Origin: a virus
Direction: 5' to 3' (one strand)
DNA: 44,680 nucleotides
IMG/VR virus record: IMGVR_UViG_3300007735_000740
Coordinates: 1 to 44,680 of that record
Both the position numbers and the translations under genes were made by a program. The notes beneath the pieces are model-generated. The model was not told the origin of the DNA and did not search any database. It worked only from the letters and a program-made list of their open reading frames with translations. This document shows, piece after piece, positions 36,815 through 40,086 of this stretch (position 1 is its first letter; each line of letters begins with the position of its first letter).

Positions 36815-37549
36815 TTAATTTATATAATACCAATCTTGATACCTTTCTAATCTACACCTGCGTCTTATATTAACAGGATCTATTCCGATTACTTTACTTG
36901 CCTCAATAGCACTCTCATATATTATACCACAACAAAAAACTTTTTGGGTAGTCCTTGGTTTTCTTTTAGCATTTTTTATATTTGTTATCCATTTCTCTGA
37001 CTTATTTTTTAGTCTTAATTTGTTTTCCTCCCGCGCTTTTAACATTTTGTCGGTTGGATTTTTCCACTTTTCTTTTAATTCTTTAGACTTTACTTTTTTA
37101 TTTTCCTCACTTAATTTTTTTCTTCTTTCTATAGATTTTTCAGTATTTTTATCCCAATAGTTTTTAGTAATTTGTCTTATTTTTTCTTTTGTTTCTTCAG
37201 TTCTTGGAACCGACACCCATCCAGTTGTAGCAATAGACTTATTAAAGTATTCTTCACTATTTTTAACATCTAATTTTAATTGATACTTTTTTTCCTCCTC
37301 AACTAATTCAATCGGAGTTATTTCATTATATTGAATAATTGTTTCAAAAAGAAAATCATTTTTATTTTCTTTTATTTTTTTCTTCCACCACTCACTAATA
37401 ATAAATTCTTCAGTATACCAATCTTTTTGTTTGGATGAAGGAGACCCCCAATAGTTTTCATTATAATCATATTTTGATCCAACATAATAATAAGGAGGAG
37501 TTTGATTTTTTAAATGAGGTAGATAAGTTATTTTATAAATTATATTCAT
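36815..37549 (-). CDS. GIY-YIG homing endonuclease (Seg-like)
   Basis: The 244-residue protein has IIYKITYLP as GIY, YYYVGSKYDYNE as YIG, then NYWGSP, and a Glu in ELVEEEKKYQ as the catalytic acid. Next comes a Lys/Glu-rich NUMOD3-like region (RTEETKEKIRQI, WKNPTDKMLKAREENK), and a C-terminal NUMOD1-like helix-turn-helix ESAIEASKVIGIDPVNIRR. This is typical of free-standing Seg nucleases. It lies between gp55 and gp47 with its own TATAAATA box. Confidence 0.9.
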   Translation of the reverse strand: MNIIYKITYLPHLKNQTPPYYYVGSKYDYNENYWGSPSSKQKDWYTEEFIISEWWKKKIKENKNDFLFETIIQYNEITPIELVEEEKKYQLKLDVKNSEEYFNKSIATTGWVSVPRTEETKEKIRQITKNYWDKNTEKSIERRKKLSEENKKVKSKELKEKWKNPTDKMLKAREENKLRLKNKSEKWITNIKNAKRKPRTTQKVFCCGIIYESAIEASKVIGIDPVNIRRRCRLERYQDWYYIN

Positions 37550-37589: not shown

Positions 37590-38087
37590 TCAATACCTTA
37601 GCTTACTGTGAACTCCGTCTTTGATACTATTATAATCGGAATAGTTTCCACCGTCAATAGTGTTGTCATCCGTAAACACTTCACTAAACCCAGACTTCTC
37701 AAGAATTTTATTTTTGATTTCTAACTGACGTTTCTCTCTTTGAATGCGACGAAGAAAGGCATAGTGAATAATTTGCGTAAAGTATGCAAAGGGATTTTGA
37801 GACTTCTCTGGATTGAAATTATGAATGTACTGTACACAGTTTTCAATACCGTCAGAAATCATATCTTCCTTGAACATATAGTTCACGAAGTTTGGTTTGA
37901 ACGATAGGTGATTCGCAATCTTCAGGAAACACTCTCCAATGTAGCGAGGAATGGGGGGTTTTGGTTTTCCTTGAATCTCTGCGATTTCCTTGTCTTCACG
38001 GTATTTGATGAGAGCAGCAAGAAACTCTTTGTTATTGACATAATGCTCTGACCTCTTTCTTTTGGCCATAACTGCTGTAGTTATCAT
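37590..38087 (-). CDS. 55: late transcription sigma factor (T4 gp55-like)
   Basis: A small divergent sigma factor directing host RNA polymerase to TATAAATA boxes with gp45 help. HYVNNKEFLAALIKY and KEDMISDGIENCVQYIHNFNPEKSQNPFAYFTQIIHYAFLRRIQREKR match T4 gp55 closely, including the region 2-like core. Starts at 38087 or 38069 are both possible. Its early promoter (38113-38141) is excellent, as expected for a regulator made before late genes. Confidence 0.95.
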   Translation of the reverse strand: MITTAVMAKRKRSEHYVNNKEFLAALIKYREDKEIAEIQGKPKPPIPRYIGECFLKIANHLSFKPNFVNYMFKEDMISDGIENCVQYIHNFNPEKSQNPFAYFTQIIHYAFLRRIQREKRQLEIKNKILEKSGFSEVFTDDNTIDGGNYSDYNSIKDGVHSKLRY

Positions 38088-38112: not shown

Positions 38113-38141
38113 ATTATACCACTTTAGTAAATGCTTGACAA
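38113..38141 (-). promoter_or_regulatory. sigma70 promoter for gp55
   Basis: TTGTCA (38141-38136), 17-bp spacer, TATAAT (38118-38113). Predicted start near 38106, about 19 nt before the first ATG. Its -35 overlaps the -35 of an opposing promoter. Confidence 0.8.
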
Positions 38142-38163
38142 GGTATTCAAAACTTTGTATAAT
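38135..38163 (+). promoter_or_regulatory. perfect consensus sigma70 promoter on the plus strand
   Basis: TTGACA (38135-38140), exactly 17 bp, TATAAT (38158-38163). The predicted start is near 38170, reading antisense into the Sm-like gene and UvsW. No plus-strand gene follows. Confidence 0.7.
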
Positions 38164-38190
38164 AACCTTTGTCGAGGTTGATAAGTTGTA

Positions 38191-38586
38191 TTAGCTACTT
38201 TTATAAAGCTTCTCTAAGATCTCTTTAGCATCATTGACATTAGCAATATATCCCATTCTACGATTTGGTTTAGATTGATTTCTTTTTTCTTTATAAGACT
38301 GACGAACATAAGATTGATACATCATAATCATTTCAATATCAGAAGATTCTGAAAGGGTCAATACATCTTGTAAATTAATAATAAACATATCTTCTGTAGT
38401 TGTTTTTAACCATGGTTCAAACTTATATCCAACTACACCTATCCTACTTTTAATTTCAGATATTATAATTGGATTAGAAATAATAAGCATGGTTCTGTCT
38501 TCTTCTTCTGAAGCAGCAACTTTAGCAAATATTTCTTCACCTGATTTTAATTTAACTGTAGCGTAAAAATCTTCTTCAATTCCCAT
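38191..38586 (-). CDS. Sm-like protein (cyanophage type)
   Basis: FYATVKLKSGEEIFAKVAAS followed by MLIISNPIIIS, KFEPWLKTTTEDMFIINLQDVLTLSE is the five-strand Sm-like pattern: SGE turn, NP, PW, then the IxxxxVLTL strand. It is followed by a helical and basic tail (YKEKRNQSKPNRR). The protein shares these features with the one at 22472-22852. It overlaps the UvsW end by 11 nt. RNA binding is inferred from fold only. Confidence 0.7.
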   Translation of the reverse strand: MGIEEDFYATVKLKSGEEIFAKVAASEEEDRTMLIISNPIIISEIKSRIGVVGYKFEPWLKTTTEDMFIINLQDVLTLSESSDIEMIMMYQSYVRQSYKEKRNQSKPNRRMGYIANVNDAKEILEKLYKSS

Positions 38587-40057
38587 TTTTCTTGAGTTGT
38601 ATAGTAATTATCTCATAATTAAAATTCTCTTCATTATAGATTTTAATTCTTTCAATAAGATGATTTAGTGTATAGTTTTTTCTTGAATTACAAGTACAAT
38701 CATCTGAAATATCATACAATACTGCTTTTGTTTTATTTTTTCCTTTTCTTAAAACTCTTCCGATTGATTGGAGGTTCCTGATTCTGGATTTTGAGGGAGA
38801 AGAAAAAATAACATTATGTAAATTTCTAATATTGATTCCAGTGCTAAAAGTTCCATAAGAAGCAACAATAATTGCACTGTCTTCTCTTTCCGTAATTTCC
38901 CTTACCAGTTCTCTTTCTTCTGTATCTACACCACCATGAATAAAAAATACTTTCCTATCACTTCGCTTGTTAGTATTTATCAAGTCAAAAAGTACTGCAC
39001 CATGAGATTCTACACGACTGAAAAGTAAAAGAGTATTTCCTTTTAGATCAAGAGTTAGATTTGTAATAAATTTATTCCTTTGCTCATGAGAGATTAAATA
39101 TTGAATTTCATCCTCATAAGTTTCAAATTTTTGTGGCGGATGCTTAAGAACAAGGCATTGAATGTCCAGTTGAGAAAGATGTCCTTGTTTCATCAACTCA
39201 TCTGTTCTTGTTACCTTATATGATGGACCAAATAATCCTTCCAGAACCCATTTATGTGTTTGAGTTCCATCAAGTGTTCCAGTAAATCCAAAACGATATT
39301 TTGCATGGTGAAGTTTAGTCATAATCTCTATAAGAGATTTGGACTTGAATAAATGTGCTTCATCGCCTATAATCACACCATAGTCTTCAAAAAATGAACG
39401 TTCCAGTTTATATACAGATTGCCATGTAGTAATCGTAACTGGAAACTCATTTGTTTTTTCTCTACCAGAATAGATACGGTGACAATATGACTCAGCATCC
39501 CAACCATAATCTTGGAAGTCCTTATACATCTGCTCTACCAGAGATGTCGTTGGAACGACTAAAAGTATTTTTTCGTTCTTATCAACATAGTATCTCACTA
39601 ACGAATAAATCATCAGAGATTTGCCTGATGCAGTGGGACTTATCAATAGCTTTCGATTATGTCTTAATGCACCGTATACTCCCTCTACTTGATACTGTCG
39701 AGGAGAATGGGTGCAAATAGAATGCATATAATCTTTTACACCCTCGTATGAAATCATCTCATTGACTTCAAACGGTTGCCCGTAAAACTTATTATCTTCA
39801 AACTTGTAAGAGTATCCATACTGTTCGCAGAAATTAACTATCTTATCCAAAAGACCGACATAAATTTGCTTAGATCTCATATCATATAGATGTATTTCTC
39901 CATTCCAATTTCTACCTCTGTATTGAGGCATAAATTTTGCTCCAGGAACCTCAAACTTAAAATGATCTCTTAGTTCATATTCAATATGAGGTTCTGTCTT
40001 TATTTTTAAAAATACTTCGTTTGATTTGCTTATAATCAAATTAGGGTTATTAATCAC
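38576..40057 (-). CDS. uvsW: UvsW RNA/DNA helicase
   Basis: This SF2 helicase removes R-loops at origins and promotes branch migration, switching T4 to recombination-dependent replication. PRQYQVEGV is the Q-type motif, LLISPTASGKSLM motif I, LVVPTTSLVEQM motif Ia, VIIGDEAHLFKS motif II (DEAH), FGFTGT motif III, and SIGRVLRKG motif VI. The N-terminal extension matches T4 UvsW. A late-type AATAAATA box lies 22 nt upstream; T4 uvsW is also late. Confidence 0.95.
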   Translation of the reverse strand: MINNPNLIISKSNEVFLKIKTEPHIEYELRDHFKFEVPGAKFMPQYRGRNWNGEIHLYDMRSKQIYVGLLDKIVNFCEQYGYSYKFEDNKFYGQPFEVNEMISYEGVKDYMHSICTHSPRQYQVEGVYGALRHNRKLLISPTASGKSLMIYSLVRYYVDKNEKILLVVPTTSLVEQMYKDFQDYGWDAESYCHRIYSGREKTNEFPVTITTWQSVYKLERSFFEDYGVIIGDEAHLFKSKSLIEIMTKLHHAKYRFGFTGTLDGTQTHKWVLEGLFGPSYKVTRTDELMKQGHLSQLDIQCLVLKHPPQKFETYEDEIQYLISHEQRNKFITNLTLDLKGNTLLLFSRVESHGAVLFDLINTNKRSDRKVFFIHGGVDTEERELVREITEREDSAIIVASYGTFSTGINIRNLHNVIFSSPSKSRIRNLQSIGRVLRKGKNKTKAVLYDISDDCTCNSRKNYTLNHLIERIKIYNEENFNYEIITIQLKKNGN

Positions 40058-40078
40058 TTAGATGCATTCATCTAAGAG

Positions 40079-40086
40079 TATTTATT
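40079..40086 (-). promoter_or_regulatory. late promoter AATAAATA (uvsW)
   Basis: Fits NATAAATA, 22 nt before the uvsW ATG and touching the uvsY stop. Confidence 0.5.

Follow-up and report, generated by a model that had tools for sequence, protein, structure and literature searches.

A conserved promoter-like element opposing the uvsW and Sm-like genes of T4-like cyanophages

Why should a viral genome keep an exact consensus promoter on the plus strand at a locus whose flanking genes are all read from the minus strand? The locus occupies positions 38113-38163 of the window, by which we mean the whole 44,680-nt stretch of viral DNA analyzed. On one side lies the gene for gp55, the late sigma factor (37590-38087, minus strand; phrog_234, E=2.5e-68; PF04542), and on the other a gene for an Sm-like protein (38191-38586, minus strand; PF16243, E=2.8e-12; phrog_471), the 3′ end of which faces the plus-strand element. 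The Sm-like gene carries the annotation "methylamine utilization" in relatives, and the matches to its protein in the phage collection are all in cyanophages or marine single-cell viruses. Beyond it is the gene for the UvsW helicase (38576-40057, minus strand; PF21241 UvsW_N, PF04851, phrog_16), the upstream member of the operon across which an antisense RNA would extend, and uvsY, also among the flanking genes, has the same orientation. The genes are thus as the initial annotation had named them, and the promoter-like element points away from gp55, against the coding direction of the Sm-like gene and of uvsW. The window also contains a homing-endonuclease-like gene with an I-TevI DNA-binding domain (36815-37549, minus strand; phrog_7504), inserted between gp55 and gp47; in the isolates examined, no gene annotated as a homing endonuclease is found between those two genes.

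The promoter pair in the window

The antisense element has a -35 box (TTGACA, 38135-38140, plus strand) that matches the consensus at 6/6 positions and, 17 nt past it, a -10 box (TATAAT, 38158-38163), so that the exact TTGACA-17-TATAAT consensus claimed for the plus strand is borne out at 12/12 positions. TTGACA and TATAAT-like hexamers separated by 16-18 nt are the form of a sigma-70 (housekeeping) promoter; a T4-type late promoter, with its TATAAATA-type -10 and no -35, has a different form. Counting 7 nt past the -10, the RNA is predicted to start at ~38170-38171, within a conserved downstream element (AACCTTTGTCGAGGTT, 38164-38179, plus strand; family consensus AACnnTGTnnGGGTT). On the minus strand, the gp55 promoter consists of a -35 box (TTGTCA, 38136-38141), a 17-nt spacer and a -10 box (TATAAT, 38113-38118), with the TG of an extended -10 (TGn) at 38121-38120. 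The opposing -35 boxes were said to overlap by all but one base, and indeed five of the six bases (38136-38140) are common to both.

The antisense site is the sole exact match to TTGACA-(16-18)-TATAAT in the 44,680 bases, on either strand. Since 0.05 such matches are expected by chance and 5 of 100 shuffles of the window contained one, a single match is modestly beyond chance (~5%), and the weight of the argument rests on conservation.

Conservation and geometry among relatives

Relatives were drawn from five viral-contig scans with different gp55 proteins, plus isolates, giving 381 usable loci; having been selected for their resemblance to a handful of query proteins, these do not form a random sample. 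The promoter was called present where an exact TTGACA was followed at 16-18 nt by a -10, with at least 9 of 12 matches overall (TTGACA-(16-18)-TAnnnT), between the Sm-like and gp55 genes. By this definition it is present in 377/381 loci and in 43/45 clusters at 85% gp55 identity, the -10 reading TAGAAT, TACAAT, TAGACT or TACACT in variants. With one member per cluster, the 43 positives compare with a mean of 0.575 and a maximum of 3 over 200 shuffles. A separate set, fetched with the Sm-like protein of another clade, has the promoter in 80/80 loci, with an exact TTGACA in 75. On inspection, one of the loci not called (L258) has an exact -35 with a TAGACT -10 at 17 nt, and in another (L278) the antisense promoter adjoins the Sm-like gene after an insertion; the -35 of L083 reads TTGCCA, and the antisense -35 is gone from isolate S-H34 (L090).

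Three studied isolates, Syn9, P-HM2 and S-PM2, all carry the antisense promoter on the strand opposite the genes, with predicted starts at ~123698 in Syn9 (DQ149023.2), ~120709 in P-HM2 (GU075905.1) and ~84439 in S-PM2 (AJ630128.1; promoter at ~84446-84474, between the Sm-like gene and gp55). Across seven whole genomes, the antisense site is the only opposing-strand TTGACA-(16-18)-TAnAnT common to all. The initial annotation had suggested comparing both promoters in relatives, and had regarded loss of the antisense boxes beside a retained gp55 promoter as telling against its reading; both promoters prove to be conserved, and the antisense boxes are kept. Such near-universal retention in the T4-like cyanophages examined argues that the antisense promoter is preserved by selection, and the element is, on this comparative evidence, very probably a real, selected promoter. 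That an opposing promoter is conserved at least as well as the late sigma factor's own is unexpected in near-one-strand genomes.

Because the two -35 boxes coincide in the window, where CTTGaCAAG is near-palindromic, the antisense -35 might be a mirror image of the gp55 -35, paired with a fortuitous -10. The gp55 -35 coincides with the antisense -35 in 165 loci; in 212 it does not. When sites were located by the -10 and downstream element alone and the -35 spacing was then scored, an exact TTGACA lay at 17 nt in 105/110 loci with separate -35 boxes and in 65/80 of the shared class. The antisense -35 is thus exact where the sense -35 sits elsewhere, which rules out a mirror image or chance and leaves this explanation a next to negligible probability. 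Nearly all located sites have the exact hexamer at 16-18 nt, and no other spacing occurs within 10-29; the spacer columns are variable and the hexamers strongly conserved. Where the boxes coincide, the gp55 -35 (TTGTCA) misses its consensus by one base and the antisense direction has a perfect match, but this follows from requiring an exact antisense box and is an illustration, no independent test.

What is held constant is the position of the antisense promoter relative to the Sm-like gene. The distance from the Sm-like stop to the antisense -10 has a median of 27 nt (sd 6.5), and that from the gp55 start a median of 70 (sd 13.6). The coincident -35 boxes of the window are therefore one geometry among several; the fixed features are the antisense promoter itself and its distance from the Sm-like stop. 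These measurements bear on the main rival explanation, in which the antisense promoter would occlude the gp55 promoter, delaying late onset or cutting noise, with the RNA itself irrelevant. Promoter cores overlap in 262/377 loci and lie within 10 nt of each other in 94 more, and in E. coli the two directions of a bidirectional promoter do compete when strongly driven (PMC12825309), but the inter-promoter geometry varies among clades, whereas the Sm-like-stop distance hardly does. Moreover, in one insertion lineage (L595, L624, L626 and L627, two sequence variants), a gene of ~190 codons stands between the promoter pair and gp55, which lies at a distance of ~720 nt; the interval between the Sm-like stop and the antisense promoter is still 26-27 nt. 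The paired sense promoter is retained there as well and might yet drive gp55 by read-through, so this lineage is compatible with either model. On balance, competition between the promoters is an unlikely account of the site.

The pair also invites comparison with the bidirectional promoters described by Grainger and colleagues (PMC12825309, PMC10268837), in which, likewise, polymerase is sent in both directions from a single short sequence and the two complexes should exclude each other. Those promoters share a -10 and have starts 7-25 bp apart; in the cyanophages, the predicted divergent starts have a median separation of 65 bp (5-95% range, 55-84), and it is the -35 that is shared, in under half of the loci. 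By its spacing, then, the pair falls outside the bidirectional promoters of Warman and Grainger.

The downstream signature and the body of the putative antisense RNA

The complete, extended signature of the antisense site occurs one to three times per genome, a frequency that rules out a general early-promoter motif. Viral and genome contigs together contain 83 exact matches, of which ~61 are the antisense site; others precede cpeT, CP12, a small ORF and another conserved gene, oriented as those genes are, and this use in gene direction supports the direction assigned to the antisense promoter. In four contigs (L514:2581, L519, L535 and L549:9412), the signature is followed, 31-37 nt on, by a gene that opens with MKPQSAKAKGRNLQKW or a similar sequence, and a contig assigned by binning to freshwater Synechococcus UW140 has a full signature as well (L470:3408-3451), which may be a host promoter or belong to phage DNA.

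A partial dyad (AACC-N-GGTT) adjoins the -10 in many loci, and the site could on that account be a protein-binding operator built on the dyad AACC...GGTT rather than an active promoter. This is very improbable: the hexamers, 17 nt apart, are an exact fit to sigma-70, the signature precedes several genes in gene direction, and P-HM2, which lacks the downstream element, keeps the core promoter without the dyad.

The initial annotation found no plus-strand gene here, in agreement with which the window has no plus-strand ORF of at least 30 aa at 38164-38600; a hidden gene can be set aside, none being common to the relatives looked at. The site thus lies opposite the Sm-like gene and encodes no protein, as expected of a cis-antisense RNA. 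A known RNA family was likewise ruled out, Rfam giving no family match for the site. The ~15 conserved bases just downstream of the antisense -10, together with the Sm-like fold (PF16243) of the protein encoded opposite, would be compatible with a trans-acting small RNA, possibly bound by that protein. This we consider quite improbable in view of the Rfam result, of the loss of the downstream element in P-HM2 with retention of the core promoter, and of two further negative results: no conserved antisense terminator was found among the relatives looked at, and the overlapped part of the Sm-like coding region has no excess synonymous conservation. The body of the putative RNA therefore seems free to change, which favors transcription itself or simple complementarity over a structured small RNA. 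Such weak constraint suggests that what matters is the cis act of transcription rather than a defined small RNA.

The P-HM2 paper reports antisense RNAs for the host, and CfrI of S-PM2, which the initial annotation cited, is likewise antisense transcription, in a T4-like cyanophage (PMC2984593, PMC5931967). Kinship with CfrI is not upheld, however: CfrI, as described in PMC2984593, runs opposite psbA and the homing endonuclease gene next to it, the site studied here lies between the Sm-like gene and gp55, and S-PM2 has its own copy of the antisense promoter at that place. The two differ, too, in that CfrI was detected as an RNA, and the antisense site is family-wide, its RNA being putative.

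A candidate role in the timing of uvsW expression

The genes that the antisense promoter opposes have the marks of a late operon, in part of the family at least. In the window, a late-promoter-like AATAAATA (40079-40086, minus strand) lies 21 nt before the uvsW start, and 16/39 clusters have a NATAAATA-like motif a short way before uvsW; the other 23 gave no late motif immediately before the gene. A sigma-70 promoter (at least 10/12 matches) occurs in just 1 of 256 uvsW upstream regions, and NATAAATA occurs, on the gene strand, in 2/381 gp55 upstream regions. Directly behind AATAAATA, at the uvsW start, is a hairpin (CTTAGATG-AATG-CATCTAAG, 40057-40076), the arms of which differ in several relatives yet still pair. 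Read on the plus strand, it is followed by AGTATTTATT, an interrupted T tail, and the two together are a weak candidate for the end of the putative antisense RNA. The hairpin at the cyanophage uvsW start is reminiscent of those T4 late genes for which long read-through messages go untranslated.

The lack of a shared ORF, of a conserved terminator and of extra synonymous constraint favors pre-late antisense transcription that would interfere with the late uvsW/Sm-like operon, a reading to which we give slightly less than an even chance. Host RNA polymerase would fire the antisense promoter before late transcription, and the opposing transcription, through collision or mRNA pairing, would hold down read-through expression of uvsW and the Sm-like gene; gp55 would later redirect polymerase to late promoters and so lift the hold on the late operon. 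The antisense promoter probably serves as a timing device.

T4-like cyanophages are described in PMC2984593 as being without the MotA/AsiA system of T4, and sigma-70-like motifs are reported there to precede the S-PM2 and Syn9 homologues of early genes. Host-like sigma-70 promoters of this kind have the same hexamers and spacing as the antisense promoter, which differs from them in pointing against genes and in carrying an extra downstream element. Its activity would be early or middle; Doron et al., in 2016, are said to have assigned the host-like promoters of Syn9 to middle genes.

A reason to delay UvsW is suggested by T4, in which a late promoter drives uvsW and the protein clears R-loops from origins (PMC3016281). 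In a T4-type phage, uvsW and the uvsY genes are convergent, so uvsW there would already face opposing pre-late transcription, as it would in the cyanophages; in the latter, uvsY runs in the same direction as uvsW, and a dedicated promoter would be the source of the opposing transcription. The same T4 biology raises the prospect that the antisense promoter gives rise to an R-loop from which replication is primed, in the manner of the T4 middle promoters at oriF and oriG. Although oriF lies at uvsY, near uvsW, and UvsW acts on origin R-loops (PMC3016281), no change in GC skew accompanies the antisense site in the window, and an origin here is highly improbable.

Some observations count against the timing role: S-H34 is without the antisense -35, 23/39 clusters are without a late motif before uvsW, and in some clades the hairpin at the uvsW start may block early translation, which would make a second device redundant. 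It is possible, though on the unlikely side, that the locus forms a built-in clock, in which host polymerase would oppose the late operon until gp55, made next door, ended the opposition; if so, the late sigma factor and uvsW would be coupled by an intergenic stretch of ~100 bases. Should the antisense promoter fire, the passage from early to late transcription in these abundant ocean phages would gain a further level of control, acting in cis. With respect to late transcription more generally, the TATAAATA late promoter is in excess in the window, with 10 found, 9 of them on the minus strand, versus 3.8 expected.
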